The position numbers and the translations under genes are program-made. The notes below the pieces were generated by a model. That model did not search any database. It was given only the letters and a program-made list of their open reading frames with translations, and was not told the DNA's origin. DNA of 64,000 nucleotides from Morganella morganii (GTDB taxonomy: Bacteria > Pseudomonadota > Gammaproteobacteria > Enterobacterales > Enterobacteriaceae), in contig NZ_CP066129.1 in assembly GCF_019242955.1 (NCBI RefSeq), positions 2,480,001-2,544,000 on the forward strand, in the 5' to 3' direction. This document shows, piece after piece, positions 12 to 30,528 of this stretch (the first letter of the stretch is position 1; each line of letters starts with the position of its first letter).

Positions 12-3000
12 ATGTCCGGAAACAACCCTGAAACCCGTGCCGGCGGACCGTCCCGCCTGTTTATCCTGCGTCCGGTTGCCACCAGCCTGTTTATGCTGGC
101 GATCCTGCTGGCAGGGATTGTCGGTTACCGCATGCTGCCGGTCTCTTCGCTGCCGGAAGTGGATTACCCGACTATCCGCGTGGTGACACTCTATCCCGGC
201 GCCAGTCCGGATGTGATGACCTCCGCGGTGACCGCACCGCTTGAGCGCCAGTTCGGGCAGATGTCCGGCCTGAAACAGATGTCATCGCAAAGCTCGGGCG
301 GCGCTTCGGTGATCACCCTGATGTTCCAGCTTTCTCTGCCGCTGGATGTGGCGGTGCAGGAAGTGCAGGCGTCCATCAATGCAGCAACCAACCTGCTGCC
401 GAATGATCTGCCTTATCCGCCGATTTACAGCAAAGTCAACCCGGCCGATCCGCCGGTACTGACCCTTGCCGTCACCTCCGATGCCATGCCGATGACCCGG
501 TTACAGGATATGGTGGAGAACCGCATCGCCCAGAAAATCTCACAGGTTGAGGGAGTCGGGCTGGTGACACTGGCGGGCGGTCAGCGCCCTGCCGTGCGGG
601 TTCAGCTGAATGCCAATGCGGTTGCCGCTTACGGGCTGGACAGCGAAACTATCCGCACCGCGATTAATAACGCCAACGTCAACTCCGCCAAAGGGAGCCT
701 CGACGGCCCGGCACGCTCTGTAACACTGTCCGCCAACGACCAGATGAAATCGGCGGAAGATTATCAGAACCTGATTGTCAGCTACAAAAATAACGCTCCG
801 ATTCGCCTGCGCGATGTGGCAACTGTTCAGGAGGGGCCGGAAAATACGCAATTAGGTGCCTGGGTCAATGACAAACAGGCCATCGTGATTAATGTGCAGC
901 GCCAGCCCGGCGCAAACGTGATTGCCACCACCGATACCATTCGCGCTCTGATCCCGGAACTGGTGGAAACCCTGCCGGAATCCGTGACAGTGACGGTTCT
1001 GACTGACCGGACAGATGCTATCCGCGCCTCGGTTAAAGATGTGCAGTTTGAACTGTTTTTAGCGATCGCGCTGGTGATCATGGTGATGTACCTGTTCCTG
1101 CGCAATATGGCCGCGACGCTGATCCCCGGGGTGGCCGTACCGCTCTCGCTCGTCGGTACGTTTGCGGTGATGTATTTCTGCGGCTTTTCTGTCAATAACC
1201 TGACGCTAATGGCGCTGACTATCGCCACCGGCTTTGTGGTGGATGATGCGATTGTGGTAGTGGAGAATATCGCCCGCTATCTGGAAAAAGGTGACAAACC
1301 GCTGACCGCTGCCCTGAAAGGTGCCGGTGAGATTGGTTTTACCATTATCTCGCTGACCTTCTCGCTGATCGCCGTGTTAATTCCCCTGTTATTTATGGGG
1401 GATATTGTCGGCCGCCTGTTCCGCGAATTTGCCATCACCCTCGCCGTGGCAATCCTGATTTCCGGTGTGGTATCGCTGACGCTGACACCGATGATGTGCG
1501 CCCGGTTCCTGAAACCGGAATCCGCACAGCGTCATAACCGTTTCAATCTCGCCACCGAACGCTTTTTTGAGCGGGTGATTGCCGGTTACGGCCGCTGGCT
1601 GACATGGGTATTACGCCATCAGTGGCTGACGCTCGGCGTTGCGTTCAGCACTATGGCGATCACCGTTATTCTTTATCTGTTTATTCCGAAAGGCTTTTTC
1701 CCGGTTCAGGATAACGGGCTTATCCAGGGCACGCTGGAAGCGCCGCAATCTGTGTCGTTTCAGGCGATGAGTGAGAAACAGCAGGCGGTCAGCCGTCTGC
1801 TGGCGGATGACCCGGCGGTCGCAAATATCGCGGCATTTGCCGGTATCGACGGCAGCAACGCCACTCTTAACACCGGACGTCTGCAAATCACGCTGAAACC
1901 GCTGTCTGAGCGGGCTGACCGCGCCGAAGCTATCATCACGCGGTTACAGGAAAAAGCAGATACCCTGCCCGGCGTGAAGCTGTATCTCCAGCCATCCCAG
2001 GATCTGACTATCGATACCCAGACTTCCCGCACCCAATATCAGTTCACCTTACAGGCGAACTCCCTTGAGGAGCTGGATCTGTGGGTGCCGCGTCTGATGA
2101 CAGAATTAGAGAGCAGCGATGCCCTGACCGATACCGGTAATGACTGGCAGAACAAAGGACTGGTGGCTTATATCGATATTGACCGCGACACAGCCTCACG
2201 ACTGGGGCTGACCATGACCAATATTGATAACGCGCTGTACAATGCGTTTGGTCAGCGGCTGATCTCCACGATTTATACCCAGGCCAGCCAGTACCGGGTA
2301 GTGCTGGAGAATAATACCGCGCTGACACCGGGTGCGGACGCCCTCAACAGTATCCGTCTGACCAACAAAGACGGCAATTCCGTGCCGTTATCAGCGTTTG
2401 CCACTGTTTCGCAGCGCTTCGGGCCGCTGGCCATTAACCATCTGGCTCAGTTCCCGTCCGCCACTTTCTCCTTTAATATCCCGGCGGGTGGTTCACTGGA
2501 AGCGGCGGTGAACGCGGTGAAATCAGCAGAGCAGCGTATCGGTCTGCCGAAAGATATCACCACCCAATTCCAGGGCGCGACCCTCGCCTTTGAAAATGCC
2601 CTCTCCGGCACATTGTGGCTGATCCTCGCCGCCGTAGTGGCAATGTACATTGTGCTCGGTATTCTGTATGAGAGTTTTATTCACCCGATTACCATCCTCT
2701 CCACCCTGCCCACTGCCGGGGTCGGTGCGCTGCTGGCGCTGATCATGGCGGGCAATGAGCTGGATGTCATCGCGATTATCGGTATTATTCTGCTGATAGG
2801 GATAGTGAAGAAAAACGCCATTATGATGATTGACTTCGCCCTCGCCGCAGAACGCGAACAGGGACTGTCACCGTATGATGCTATCTATCAGGCCTGTCTC
2901 CTGCGTTTCCGTCCGATCCTGATGACCACCATGGCCGCACTGTTCGGCGCGGTACCGCTGATGCTCAGTACCGGGGTCGGTGCCGAACTGCGCCAGCCGC

Positions 3001-3152
3001 TGGGGGTCTGTATGGTCGGCGGGCTGATTATGAGCCAGATCCTGACCCTCTTTACCACCCCGGTGATTTACCTGCTGTTTGACCGCCTGTCACACTGGCG
3101 CGATCACGCTCGGTTTACCCCGGAAAGCGACAACACAGGAGCCTCATCATGA
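12..3152 (+). CDS. mdtB: RND multidrug efflux permease subunit MdtB
   Basis: Inner-membrane proton-driven pump subunit. MdtB and MdtC form a heteromultimer that works with the periplasmic adaptor MdtA and TolC to expel bile salts, novobiocin and similar compounds (family knowledge). The 1046-residue length fits MdtB. The RND layout is visible: a first membrane helix near residue 25, a large periplasmic loop, a helix block at about 340-500, a second loop, and a final block from about 865. The TM4 proton-relay aspartates are D411 and D412 in [16 protein letters not shown] at 12 follows an AAGG-containing stretch; the adaptor gene mdtA would lie just upstream, outside the window. The stop overlaps the mdtC start by 4 bases. 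Paralogy with the next gene is obvious along its whole length. Confidence 0.96.
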
Positions 3153-6100
3153 GGCTGTTCGCCCTGTTTATCGCCCGTCCGGTGGCCACAACGCTGATAA
3201 GCCTCGCCATCACGCTGTGCGGGGCAATAAGCTTCCTGTTTCTGCCGGTGGCACCGCTGCCGCAGGTGGATTATCCGGTGATCAATATCTCGGCGTCACT
3301 GCCGGGCGCATCACCGGAAACCATGGCATCGTCTGTCGCCACGCCGCTGGAACGCTCACTCGGGCAGATAGCCGGGGTGTCAGAAATGACATCATCCAGT
3401 TCGCTCGGCAGCACCAGTATCACCCTGGAATTTGAGCTTAACCGTGATATCAACGGCGCCGCCCGTGATGTGCAGGCGGCACTGAATGCCGCACAAAACC
3501 TGCTGCCGTCCGGGATGCCGTCACGGCCGCGTTACTATAAATCCAACCCGTCCGATGCGCCTATTATGATCCTGACGCTGACATCAGACACGCTCGATAC
3601 CGGCAAACTCTATGATATCGCCTCCACCCGGCTGGCACAGCGCCTGTCGCAGATTGAGGGCGTGAGCGAGGTTTCTGTCGGCGGCGGTTCACTGCCTGCC
3701 GTGCGGGTGGAACTCAATCCGTCACAGCTGTTTAACCAGGGCGTTTCCCTCGACAGCGTACGCAAGGCGATTGCTGATGCCAACGTGCTGCGCCCGCAGG
3801 GTTCCGTATCTGACAATGAGCGCCGCTGGCAAATTGGCAGTAACAGCGAACTGAAAACCGCGGATGATTATCGTCCGCTGATTGTGCATTACAATGACGG
3901 CGCGGCAGTACGCCTGGCCGATGTCGCCACAGTGAAAGACTCGGTACAGAACGTCCGCGCGGCCGGGATGAGCAACGGCAAGCCTGCTATTCTGCTGGTG
4001 ATCCGCCGTGAAGCCGGTGCCAATATCATCGCCACCGTAGCCCGTATCCGTGAACAGCTGCCGGTATTACAGGATGCCATTCCCGCCAGCGTGGATATGC
4101 AGGTCGCGCAGGATCGCACACCGACCATCCGTGCCTCACTGACCGAAGTGGAGCGCGCCCTGACCATTGCGGTAGGGCTGGTGATCCTGGTGGTCTTCCT
4201 GTTTCTGCGCTCCGGCCGCGCCACCATTATCCCGGCGCTGGCCGTGCCTGTTTCCCTTATCGGTACTTTCAGCGCCATGTATCTGTGCGGGTTCAGCCTC
4301 AATAACCTGTCACTGATGGCGCTGACCGTCGCCACCGGCTTTGTGGTGGATGATGCCATTGTGGTGCTGGAGAATATCGCCCGTCATATTGAAAACGGCC
4401 TGAAACCCAAAGAAGCGGCGCTCAAAGGGGTCAGCGAAGTCGGTTTCACCGTGCTTTCGATGAGTATTTCCCTGGTGGCGGTGTTTATCCCGCTGCTGCT
4501 GATGGATGGCCTTGTCGGGCGGCTGTTCCGCGAGTTCGCCATCACGCTGACCACGGCTATTGCTATCTCGCTGGTGATCTCCCTGACACTCACCCCGATG
4601 CTCTGCGCCTATCTGCTGAAAAACCGCGCGGCTCCGGCACGTGAGCGCAAACGCGGCGCGGGCAGGCTCCTGTTCCGTATTCAGCAATGGTACGGACGCA
4701 GCCTGACCGTAGTACTGGCACACAGCCGCTGGGTGCTGCTGATTTTCACCGGCACCATTGCCCTGGCGGTCTGGCTCTATATCTCCGTACCAAAAACCTT
4801 TTTCCCGGATCAGGATACCGGGCGCCTGCTGGGCTTTGTCCGCGCTGACCAGAGCATTTCGTTCCAGTCGATGGAGCAGAAAATGCGCACCTTTATGCAG
4901 CGTATTCACAGTGATAAAGATGTCGCCAGCGTCACCGGTTTTACCGGCGGCGGCCGGGTGAACAGCGGGTTTATGTTTATCTCCCTCAATCCGCTGGATG
5001 AGCGGACAGACAGCGCCCAGGATGTGATAAACCGGCTGCGTGTGACCCTCGCGGATGAACCGGGTGCCAACCTGTTTCTGATCCCGGTGCAGGATGTGCG
5101 GGCGGGCGGCCGTCAGTCCAACTCCAGTTATCAGTACTCCCTGCTGGCGGATGATTTATCCCTGCTGCGCGAATGGGAGCCGAAAATCCGCAAGGCACTC
5201 GGTGAACTGCCGCAGCTGGCCGATGTCAACTCGGATAAAGAGGACAAAGGCGCGGAGATGGCGCTGACTTATGACCGCGATGTGATGGCACAGCTCGGGA
5301 TCAGCGTGAATGATGCCAATAACCTGCTCAATAACGCCTTCGGTCAGCGGCAGATCTCCACGATTTATGAGCCTCTGAATCAGTACAAAGTGGTGATGGA
5401 AGTTGCGCCGCAATATACGCAGGATGTCAGCGCACTGGATAAGATGTTTGTTATCAATAAAGAGGGACAACCGGTTCCGCTGGCGTATTTTGCACAATGG
5501 CGCCCGGCGAATGCGCCGCTGAGTGTAAACCATCAGGGGCTGTCGGCGGCGTCAACAATCGGCTTTGACGTGGCGCAGGGGTATTCTCTGTCAGATGCGG
5601 TAACTGCGGTCGAACGCACCATGGTGGAGCTGGGTGTGCCATCCGGGGTGCGCGGGTCGTTTGCCGGAACCGCACAGTTATTTCAGGAGACATTACAGTC
5701 CCAGGTACTGCTGATTATCGCCGCTGTTATTACCGTGTATCTGGTGCTCGGTATGCTGTATGAAAGCTTTATTCATCCGCTGACCATCTTATCCACCCTG
5801 CCCTCCGCGGGCGTCGGCGCACTGCTTGCGCTGAAGTTTTTTGATACACCGTTCAGCCTGATTGCCCTGATAGGTATCATGCTGCTGATCGGGATTGTGA
5901 AGAAAAACGCCATTATCATGGTGGACTTCGCCATTGCTGCCCAGCGCGGCGGGCAAAATGCACGGGATGCGATTTTTCAGGCCTGTCTTCTGCGTTTCCG
6001 CCCGATCCTGATGACCACACTGGCTGCCCTGTTCGGTGCACTGCCGCTGGCACTCGGCAGCGGTGACGGGGCGGAACTGCGTCAGCCGCTCGGCATCACG

Positions 6101-6241
6101 GTGGTCGGCGGGTTGCTGGTCAGCCAGATCCTGACATTGTATACCACCCCGGTGATTTACCTGTTTTTTGACCGGCTGCGCCGCAAAAAAACCGGAGAAT
6201 CAACCGGACAGCCTGTTCTGAACACGGAGGGAAATACATGA
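3149..6241 (+). CDS. mdtC: RND multidrug efflux permease subunit MdtC
   Basis: Second RND permease of the MdtBC pump, 1030 residues, partner of MdtB in the inner membrane. It shows the same two-fold RND architecture. TM4 aspartates D401 and D402 lie in [13 protein letters not shown], and the conserved [14 protein letters not shown] segment lies in the second half. The start codon is in an ATGA overlap with mdtB, which suggests translational coupling. Its own stop overlaps the baeS start in another ATGA. In Escherichia coli an MFS gene, mdtD, sits between mdtC and baeS; here there is no room for it, so the operon reads mdt(A)BC-baeSR. Confidence 0.96.
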
Positions 6242-8356: not shown

Positions 8357-8377
8357 AAAACGGCGGAATATCCGCCA
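8357..8377. terminator. Upstream copy of a duplicated bidirectional terminator stem
   Basis: Stem GGCGGA-ATA-TCCGCC preceded by six A residues. Read on the minus strand, the A run becomes a U run, so this copy can terminate leftward transcripts from the gene at 8557-9318. On the plus strand the bases after it (ATTTGAG) are a poor U tract. The same 19-base stem and 5' flank recur at 8521-8539 on the other side of the repeat. Confidence 0.7.
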
Positions 8378-8378
8378 T

Positions 8379-8523
8379 TTGAGATTGCTGACAATGCAGG
8401 ATAAAACGTGGTTTTTCCTGCTTTGTGTTATCAGCCGAAAATCAATAAATTGATTTTCCTGGTTTATTTTTACAACCTCTGTCAGTCGTCGCCAATCCCT
8501 GCGGGTTTGTCAACGGCCTGAAA
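8379..8523 (+). repeat. 145-bp dispersed repeat, copy 1, nested inside a terminator
   Basis: A 145-base segment whose only other copy in the window is 29505-29649: same length, same orientation, four substitutions by eye (about 97% identity). Internal structure: an imperfect hairpin pairing GCTGACAATGCAGG with CCTGCTTTGTGTTATCAGC, a near-perfect palindrome at 8437-8458 (GAAAATCAAT-AA-ATTGATTTTC), and ends that carry the related inverted motifs GCTGACAA and TTGTCAAC. There is no ORF. It sits between convergent genes, bracketed by two copies of the local terminator stem. It does not match the ERIC, REP or BOX consensus as I remember them. Confidence 0.9.
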
Positions 8524-8552
8524 CGGCGGAATATCCGCCGTTTATTGTTTTT
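8521..8552 (+). terminator. Downstream copy of the duplicated terminator stem
   Basis: The same GGCGGA-ATA-TCCGCC stem as at 8357-8377, here followed by GTTTATTGTTTTT. This is the copy with a plus-strand U-rich tract, so a baeR transcript would cross the whole repeat before terminating here. Confidence 0.75.
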
Positions 8553-28894: not shown

Positions 28895-29464
28895 ATGAGC
28901 TCTGACCGTATTGCGAATCCAGGCCCGCTGGGCTTACTGGGATTTGGTATGACGACTATCCTGCTGAATGTCCACAACGCCGGATTCTTCCCGATGGCTT
29001 CTGTTATTCTGAGCATGGGGATTTTCTACGGTGGTATTGCGCAGGTCATCGCCGGTATTTTCGAATATAAGAAAGGAAATACTTTTGGTGCGACAGCCTT
29101 TACTTCGTACGGCTTTTTCTGGATAAGTCTGGTCGGCATACTGTTAATGCCGTCAATGGGATTCGGTGAGGCAACCAGCCATGAGTTCCTGGCTGTTTAT
29201 CTGGCACTGTGGGGTATTTTCTCATTCTTTATGTTTCTTGCCACTCTGAAAGCAAACCTCGCGCTGCGTGCGGTTTTCTTCCTGCTGGTGATTTTATTTG
29301 CCCTGCTCGTTATCGGTAATGCTACCGGTAATGCCGCATTACTGAAAATTGCCGGTTATGAAGGTATTTTATGTGGTGCAACCGCATTTTATCTGGCAAT
29401 GGCTGAAGTACTGAATGAGCAGTACGGCCGGACGATTTTACCTGTCGGCGGGCGTCACGCCTGA
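28895..29464 (+). CDS. satP: Acetate/succinate-proton symporter SatP (YaaH)
   Basis: 189 residues, GPR1/FUN34/YaaH family, six membrane helices. It takes up acetate and succinate with protons (family knowledge). The family motif NPGPLGLLGFG stands at residues 8-18 and the whole protein is hydrophobic up to the polar tail GRTILPVGGRHA. ATG has a GATTGAGGTTCT leader. It is monocistronic; the terminator after it carries copy 2 of the dispersed repeat. Confidence 0.94.
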   Translation: MSSDRIANPGPLGLLGFGMTTILLNVHNAGFFPMASVILSMGIFYGGIAQVIAGIFEYKKGNTFGATAFTSYGFFWISLVGILLMPSMGFGEATSHEFLAVYLALWGIFSFFMFLATLKANLALRAVFFLLVILFALLVIGNATGNAALLKIAGYEGILCGATAFYLAMAEVLNEQYGRTILPVGGRHA

Positions 29465-29482: not shown

Positions 29483-29506
29483 AAAAACCCGTTCACTGAA
29501 CGGGTT
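29483..29506. terminator. Upstream copy of the duplicated satP/yfaZ terminator stem
   Basis: CCCGTTCA-CTG-AACGGG-type stem (ACCCGTTC/GAACGGGT) preceded by seven A residues. The A run gives a U run on the minus strand, so this copy ends leftward transcripts from yfaZ, while the plus-strand side (TTGAG) lacks a U tract. The same 22 bases recur with one loop change at 29647-29668. Confidence 0.75.
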
Positions 29507-29649
29507 GAGATTGCTGACAAAGCAGGATAAAACGCGGTTTTTCCTGCTTTGTGTTATCAGCCGAAAATCAATAAATTGATTTTCCTGGTTTATTTTTACA
29601 ACCTCTGTCGGTCGTCGCCAACCCCTGCGGGTTTGTCAACGGCCTGAAA
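29505..29649 (+). repeat. 145-bp dispersed repeat, copy 2, nested inside a terminator
   Basis: Same length and orientation as 8379-8523 with four substitutions. Here the first internal hairpin pairs slightly better (GCTGACAAAGCAGG with CCTGCTTTGTGTTATCAGC). The central palindrome GAAAATCAAT-AA-ATTGATTTTC is identical. It lies between convergent satP and yfaZ, bracketed by two copies of their terminator stem, whose sequence is unrelated to the stem at copy 1. Confidence 0.9.
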
Positions 29650-29672
29650 CCCGTTCACAGAACGGGTTTTTT
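29647..29672 (+). terminator. Downstream copy of the duplicated satP/yfaZ terminator stem
   Basis: AAACCCGTTC-ACA-GAACGGGTTTTTTG: the copy with six T residues on the plus strand. satP transcripts would run through the repeat and stop here. Confidence 0.8.
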
Positions 29673-29691: not shown

Positions 29692-30231
29692 TCAGAAACT
29701 CAGACCCGCGCCCAGATAAGCGCCGTCTGCAATGCGGTTTTCATGGCCGCTGTTAGATTCAACTTCAATCTTACGATAACCCGCTTTAACATTCAGTGGT
29801 GCAAATACTGTCCAGTTTGCGCCCACATCAGCTTCTTTATAAGAATCATTACCGGATGTCAGACCTGACGGTGCGCCGTAAAATTCACCGTAAACGCGGA
29901 CTGACGGCAGAATGCTCCATGCCACACCAACACCCGGTGCGACAGCCATTCCTTTTTTACCCACTTCCGGATCGAGATAAATTGCTTTACCGCCGACACT
30001 GGCGGAAACCGGCCCCAGCGGGAATGCAAATTTAGCACGTGCGCCGCCTAACTGCCCCTGGTGATCACTGCGTGCCCAGTTACCGTCAAATGACAGTCCG
30101 GAGTACGGGTCGCCGACACCGATATTAATATCAGTATATTTTTTACCGGCCTGAACATCCATTGAGATTGCATTTGCCGCGCCCGCCGCGAGCATCAGTG
30201 TTGCAGCCACAGCTGCTTTATATTTTTTCAT
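29692..30231 (-). CDS. yfaZ: YfaZ-family outer-membrane protein
   Basis: 179 residues from the ATG at 30231 (start MKKYKAAVAATLMLAAGAANA). The signal peptide of about 21 residues ends in ANA. The mature protein has alternating beta-strand patterns and ends in GLSF with a terminal Phe, as expected for an outer-membrane beta-barrel. The length equals E. coli YfaZ, whose function is not known. The longer open frame is rejected because the signal peptide would be internal. Confidence 0.87.
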   Translation of the reverse strand: MKKYKAAVAATLMLAAGAANAISMDVQAGKKYTDINIGVGDPYSGLSFDGNWARSDHQGQLGGARAKFAFPLGPVSASVGGKAIYLDPEVGKKGMAVAPGVGVAWSILPSVRVYGEFYGAPSGLTSGNDSYKEADVGANWTVFAPLNVKAGYRKIEVESNSGHENRIADGAYLGAGLSF

Positions 30232-30528
30232 TTTTTGCCACCACTTAAAATAAGACAGGGTTTTCGGCATTTTCCCCGAAACTGTCACCATTTGAAAGTT
30301 AATATTCTGATTTTTATGTAAAGTTATCTATATACACAATCAATAGGTCACACCAATTCATCAAATCGACGCATTCTTTTTATGACAGTGCTATATTTTA
30401 TACCAAGTCATACATTCAGATAAAAACAACAATGCACAATACAGCTTATGACTTAACATGCTGATTTTGCACATCGCGCCAAATTCTGCATATCAGCGTT
30501 TTTTTCCTTTACCGACTGGAGATATGTG

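Follow-up and report, generated by a model that had tools for sequence, protein, structure and literature searches.

A YPAL-like repeat of Morganella at duplicated terminator hairpins, probably mobilized in trans by an IS1182-family transposase

The element between satP and yfaZ and its twin

The window analyzed here, a stretch of 64,000 nucleotides from Morganella morganii, contains the genes satP (28895–29464, + strand; NF007941, 304 bits at a cut-off of 297), which encodes an acetate uptake transporter, and yfaZ (29692–30291, − strand; PF07437, 175 bits at a cut-off of 23). Between them lies an element of 142 nt (29506–29647, + strand) with the ends T(G/C)AG...CT(G/C)A, the junctions of which were compared over the located copies and five empty sites. 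The satP/yfaZ terminator hairpin stands on both sides of it (29486–29505 on the left, 29648–29667 on the right, both unstranded); the left one is distal for leftward (yfaZ) transcripts, the right one for rightward (satP) transcripts, and each has kept its U-tract. A preliminary description of this DNA had noted the stem CCCGTTC/GAACGGG and a flanking direct repeat of 22 nt, and both were recovered, the repeat at 29485–29506 and 29647–29668 with a single mismatch in the loop.

Five families of direct repeats of at least 40 nt were detected in the window. One of them pairs 29505–29650 with 8379–8524, and the remaining four sit at 1112–6178. The match to the satP/yfaZ element (copy 2), together with the junction comparison, delimits a second copy at 8380–8521 on the + strand (copy 1, locus L010). 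An alignment of the two over 146 positions shows 4 differences, so that they are as nearly identical as had been described. Copy 1 is flanked by the hairpin ACGGCGGAATATCCGCC at 8359–8379 (21 nt, one mismatch to the right one) and at 8522–8542 (placed by junction comparison), both unstranded. This hairpin is unrelated to that at satP/yfaZ, as had been remarked earlier. The neighbors of copy 1 are baeR (NF007982) and an open reading frame without a family match, a convergent pair. The convergent setting noted earlier holds for both copies of the window, but not genome-wide: by a crude ORF rule, 15 of the 32 copies with both ends in this genome lie between convergent, 13 between tandem and 2 between divergent genes, with 2 unassigned.

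Copy 2 begins with a left terminal inverted repeat TGAGATTGCTGACAAA (29506–29521, + strand) and ends with a right one (29632–29647), which reads TCAGGCCGTTGACAAA on the − strand. The left repeat is identical to the left end of IS1182-type IS at 14/16 positions and the right repeat at 13/16; the IS repeat matches them with 2 and 3 mismatches of 17, respectively. A left subterminal palindrome ACAAAGCAGGA...TCCTGCTTTGT (29517–29552, unstranded), with 18-nt arms that are 89% complementary, occupies the position of CAAAGTCCT...AGGACTTTG in the IS, and a right subterminal hairpin AACCCCTGCGGGTT (29620–29633, unstranded, identified by eye) that of AACCCC...GGGGTT in the right end of the IS. The inner palindrome GAAAATCAATAAATTGATTTTC (29563–29584, unstranded; 8437–8458 in copy 1), which recurs in other genera, holds two overlapping matches to WATCAANNNNTTR, the IHF consensus. 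The window gave 8 matches to WATCAANNNNTTR against 2.39 expected in all, and 4 of the 8 lie inside the two element copies.

At satP/yfaZ, all five congeners lack the element and have a single terminator of the same kind. At the site of copy 1, the hairpin is single and the element absent in three of the five, and the other two, also without the element, show a diverged stretch of about 180 nt. The empty sites with a single hairpin therefore indicate that the element moved in and that the second hairpin arrived with it. Together with the 32 both-ended copies of this genome, they also mean that the match between the two window copies is not due to chance.

Among 43 copies read rightward, at least five T within the next 8 nt followed the inner (near) hairpin in none and the outer (far) hairpin in 38; read leftward, the counts were 0/43 and 22/43. 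As the near hairpins are without a T-run and the far ones often have one, both neighboring genes keep a hairpin followed by a U-tract beyond the element. At copy 2, a consensus scan returned only two terminators, both facing outward (− strand 29506–29486 and + strand 29646–29670); over 1.3 kb the scan gave 6 sites, compared to 2.1 in shuffled sequences. With regard to the transcripts, we infer that the element should be part of the 3' UTRs of its neighbors. That the duplication leaves a terminator hairpin and U-tract to both neighbors in many cases would explain how tens of copies are carried without harm.

Copies in Morganella and beyond

A search of the whole genome, recommended in the preliminary description, revealed 32 copies with both ends (4,135,673 bases, one contig), besides fragments of the element. 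Of these copies, 29 are near full length, namely 25 of 138–146 nt, whose mean divergence from their consensus is 2.7%, and four that reach 158 nt and contain a 16-nt tandem repeat; the other three are 101-nt forms with an internal deletion. The element was matched in 6/6 Morganella genomes, i.e., this one and 5/5 congeners, and the congeners added 18 located both-ended copies, giving 50. Matching GTDB contigs include some titled Morganella morganii and M. psychrotolerans.

In a wider collection, 20 of 119 genomes matched the MITE query, including G000 and G003 of Morganella. The weak matches in four very small genomes (G018, G035, G084, and G120) are taken for chance, and the match in G016 spans 41 nt only. 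Copy counts for this wider family are minima, as at most seven candidates were scored per genome in the 119 genomes. The relatives outside Morganella mostly have the left ~93 nt in common, and their right part is different. The E. coli genomes searched for the MITE gave no match, and 12 records of the plasmid collection contained partial matches. An enterobacterial element of this type was also seen in a record titled Chryseobacterium sp. 18061 (L260), a name of the Bacteroidota; perhaps this is a mixed assembly.

Some ends occur without a partner. The unpaired ends at 920251, 976557, and 3836710 of this genome and five in congeners had no correctly arranged second end within the stretches examined, except in L128; for this genome there are at least those end-motif matches noted here, from among the matches listed. 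Some of these stretches look coding by eye. A solo left end at 3062854 was considered as a full-length IS and rejected, only a truncated left end beside a hairpin being present. Near 976557 (L123, 2758–2774; G000:C1), a lone left terminal repeat is immediately flanked by two pieces of one hairpin, as though the whole element except one end had been deleted. In L128 (1142–1199; G001), a palindromic unit of about 56 nt consists of both terminal repeats with one hairpin between them. Such a pair is also found in G002:C10 (259448–259503), so that it occurs in two congeners and is perhaps a minimal form of the element.

Duplication of whole hairpins at the target

Target duplications were scored as ungapped flanking duplications with a score of 8 or more. 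In the first set, 69 loci comprised the 50 located copies, 16 loci at which two ends were not present (truncated copies, relics, or repeats of others), and 3 duplicates; L056, L059, and L069 were left out of this set. A target duplication of 14–26 bp (median 20) was present in 43/50 Morganella copies. After folding, the hairpin dyad lay at most 1 nt from the center of the duplication in all 43, and at least four terminal base pairs were in register in 32/43, compared to 0 or 1 of 43 when the windows were slid by 1–8 nt. The second set was picked by the inner motif, disregarding the flanks, and its 77 stretches included 59 with both ends, 15 without, and 3 cut by a contig end. Here 48/59 copies were duplicated, 47 of these 48 were centered on the dyad, and 38/48 had at least four end pairs (0 to 2 in slid windows). 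Nine of the 77 stretches carry Morganella in their record title and may already be counted in the first set; when the Morganella records were removed, 42/51 copies were duplicated. Other genera were also checked on a smaller scale: of 22 loci, 17 were both-ended and 13 duplicated.

With hairpins of unrelated sequence and a duplication centered on the dyad, the earlier suggestion that the target is the hairpin structure and not a sequence was borne out. Copies in genes or at sites without hairpins, which had been named as evidence to the contrary if equally frequent, were few (e.g., L026/L053, L209, and L214 have no duplicated hairpin). The natural insertions for which a duplication was scored, 85 in number (43 from Morganella and 42 from outside it), provide material for studying target choice by DNA shape.

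No duplication could be scored in 7/50 Morganella copies and in 11/59 of the second set; several of these adjoin two different hairpins and a few adjoin none. In the first set, the hairpins to the left and right of L011 are not the same, and L026 and L053, both without duplication, are apparently a single orthologous site. One hairpin copy of L016, L029, and L041 contains indels (by eye), and the flanks of L047 show six differences. The latter look closer, by eye, if one copy is inverted. Judged by eye, the MITE copies L230, L231, and L247 and the IS copies L178, L144, and L145 likewise lie between two unlike hairpins; these two-hairpin elements, L011 included, appear as if two copies had recombined or adjacent DNA had been lost.

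Between the duplicate hairpins of the first set, 5/670 paired positions were mismatched vs. 29/191 unpaired ones (p = 1.8e-15), and in the second set 5/758 vs. 14/217. Stems kept in this way would fit copies that are retained as 3' UTR regulators of mRNA stability, with a distribution that reflects selection and not target choice. YPAL, a repeat compared below, is reportedly expressed with upstream genes and perhaps influences RNA stability (Delihas, 2007). We nevertheless consider selection an unlikely explanation of the distribution, as the precise target duplication and the empty sites show insertion at the hairpin itself, and positional selection would not put the center of the duplication on the dyad. 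As a separate observation, differences at unpaired bases are more common than the 2.7% divergence of the element from its consensus suggests; loop mutability or errors during insertion are possible.

For the recognition of the hairpin, two readings were weighed. The transposase may read an extruded cruciform and attach the element to the 5' foot of each stem, the whole hairpin being the stagger, which we place near, and slightly below, an even chance. The other reading concerns the target step only: a G+C-rich dyad could be recognized in double-stranded DNA and cut ~10 nt on either side, without a cruciform, and this we regard as a serious possibility that we would not call likely. It agrees with the half-length of the duplication, which varies little (sd 1.2), follows the G–C stem foot weakly (rho 0.26, p = 0.017, n = 84 of 85, stem foot as estimated), and shows no correlation with loop length (rho 0.08). 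A fixed duplication length is usual for DDE elements, whereas the lengths found here span 14–26; moreover, 68/84 duplications end 0–2 nt outside the outermost G–C pair (by our own definition), and no primary-sequence preference was seen, informally, at the targets. Because the half-length is tight and weakly tied to the stem foot, the data do not establish a cut at the foot of the cruciform, and a cut exactly at the stem foot was weakly supported by the above correlation.

IS1182-type relatives and the proposed mobilization

A search of the 119 genomes with NF033551 (IS1182 transposase) gave matches in 27, of which 3 were above cut-off, and the MITE end motif adjoined NF033551 matches in G077, G110, and G086. 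G077 has half-copies on contig ends, two of them left and two right; paired by eye through their common hairpins (L130/L134 and L132/L136), they make two further IS with the target and duplication of the MITE. Complete IS copies were found on plasmids of Providencia, Klebsiella, Vibrio, Salinivibrio, and Salmonella. Their transposases reached 487–514 bits with NF033551 (cut-off 270) in 5/5 scanned, and the Pfam domain DDE_Tnp_1_6 was present in 3/3 scanned. Among 14 distinct complete IS, 12 are 1586–1609 bp long, L153 is 1397 and L144 1494. The layout of the IS is that of the MITE: on the left a terminal repeat and a CAAAG...CTTTG hairpin, on the right an AACCCC...GGGGTT hairpin and a terminal repeat. 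When the IS terminal repeat was compared to the 64-kb window at up to 3 mismatches, four matches were obtained where 0.15 were expected, and these four are the four MITE ends. The left part of the IS is carried by 6/119 genomes, only two of which (G080 and G110) also match the MITE query. Three loci with long IS1182 matches (L102, L103, and L105) had no such end in the stretch examined when up to 2 mismatches were allowed.

A larger coding relative, which the preliminary description had sought, hence exists in the form of IS1182-family elements with the same terminal repeat. Ordinary short target duplications in such a relative had been named as an argument against the hairpin target; instead, 10 of the 14 complete IS duplicate whole hairpins of 14–26 bp, and in the other four (L178, L144, L145, and L158) the flanks differ between the two sides and no duplication could be scored. 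The MITE and the IS1182-family IS of Gammaproteobacteria are alike in the terminal repeat, the hairpin beside each end, the terminator-hairpin target, and the whole-hairpin duplication. They are unlike in that the IS measure 1.4–1.6 kb and have a DDE transposase gene, whereas the MITE has 101–158 nt and no such gene. At the level of sequence, the empty sites establish insertion, and the comparisons establish duplication of the whole hairpin as well as ends and a target habit in common with IS1182 elements. With 32 copies, empty sites and the ends of IS1182 elements, the repeat has the properties of a non-autonomous mobile element, as had been proposed.

The mover of the Morganella element is probably an IS1182-family transposase. 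In its own genome the NF033551 search found no IS1182 transposase, and across the six Morganella genomes it gave only weak matches below cut-off, in one genome (three rows, one ORF). Many IS families have MITEs, and another transposase, e.g., of the IS5 type in this genome, could be the mover of an element whose IS1182-like ends arose by convergence. We regard this as improbable, however, as IS1182-type IS match the element in both terminal repeats, in having a hairpin next to each end, in the choice of hairpins as targets, and in the 14–26 bp duplication. The preliminary description had further considered an RNA-level element, which might insert by reverse transcription at transcript 3' ends or be retron- or intron-like. 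The insertion sites are likely transcript ends and folding of the element with its flanks as RNA gives a favorable score (z −7.67), but its terminal repeats are inverted, a DNA transposon has the same ends and target, the duplication is centered on the dyad, and in 6 loci no Rfam family reached the gathering score over the element (MicA reached it in L099, outside the element). An RNA-level origin is for these reasons very improbable. Of the proposed dependence on a transposase or a reverse transcriptase, the former is supported, with a transposase that we infer to come from elsewhere, and the latter is not, a DDE transposon having the same ends and duplication.

YPAL/RU-2 of Yersinia and Erwinia carotovora is described as a small non-coding intergenic repeat of about 168 nt with internal inverted repeats and target duplications of 3–26 bp, the targets spanning or adjoining a dyad symmetry (Delihas, 2007). 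The Morganella element is likewise small, contains internal palindromes, has T(G/C)AG...CT(G/C)A and not TA ends, and its dyad-centered duplications fall within the YPAL range; with 142 nt, it differs in length. As printed there, the left end of RU-2 is identical to the IS1182-type left end at 16/16 and its right end at 11/16 positions, and the sequence continues with AACCCC after the terminal repeat, as does the right end of the IS. The left and right ends in the window agree with the RU-2 left end at 14/16 and 13/16 positions and with the RU-2 right end at 13/16 and 12/16; this likeness comes from the ends alone, as the core of the printed RU-2 sequence differs to the eye. Going by these sequence features, the element is a member of the YPAL kind. 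ERIC/RU-1, in the same source a repeat of 127 bp with 5'TA3' termini (Delihas, 2007), is also a small enterobacterial intergenic repeat, but the Morganella element has 142 nt and no TA ends. The available part of the review leaves the mode of transposition of such elements for future work and names no mobilizer. No link between YPAL and IS1182 was found in a partial literature search, mostly without subscription papers or ISfinder, and it may be recorded elsewhere. The IS1182-family transposase is a concrete candidate mobilizer for YPAL-type enterobacterial repeats.

Within the IS1182 family, two studies report that IS1272 and TnSha1 of staphylococci use inverted-repeat and terminator targets without primary-sequence specificity, and that IS1272 deletes the stem-loop and gives no target duplication (Furi, 2016; Wan et al., 2017). 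The hairpin or terminator target is thus common to IS1272 and the elements studied here, whereas the Morganella element and its IS relatives duplicate the hairpin. As a drawn alternative, the "pathway b" of Wan et al. (2017) duplicates the stem-loop when the 5' feet of a cruciform are attacked, and the present elements behave as this pathway would. If the cruciform reading is true, the insertions would be a natural counterpart of the stem-loop deletion by IS1272, YPAL and related repeats throughout Enterobacterales would be accounted for, and terminators would be a general safe harbor chosen by DNA shape.

Taken together, it is highly probable that the element is a MITE of the YPAL/RU-2 kind mobilized in trans, an IS1182-family DDE transposase inserting it at terminator hairpins with duplication of the whole hairpin. 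In the proposed mechanism, the transposase of a full-length IS with the same ends would act on the MITE in trans. Its target would be the hairpin of an intrinsic terminator, recognized as a palindrome, perhaps in the form of an extruded cruciform. Strand transfer would be staggered on either side of the dyad, and repair would then duplicate the whole hairpin. Each neighboring gene would be left with an intact hairpin and U-tract beyond the element, which would join the 3' UTR, so that the insertion would be nearly harmless. As no mobilizer was found in their own genome, the Morganella copies may now be stranded, or they may be moved upon entry of a plasmid bearing the IS; Providencia plasmids with such IS exist.
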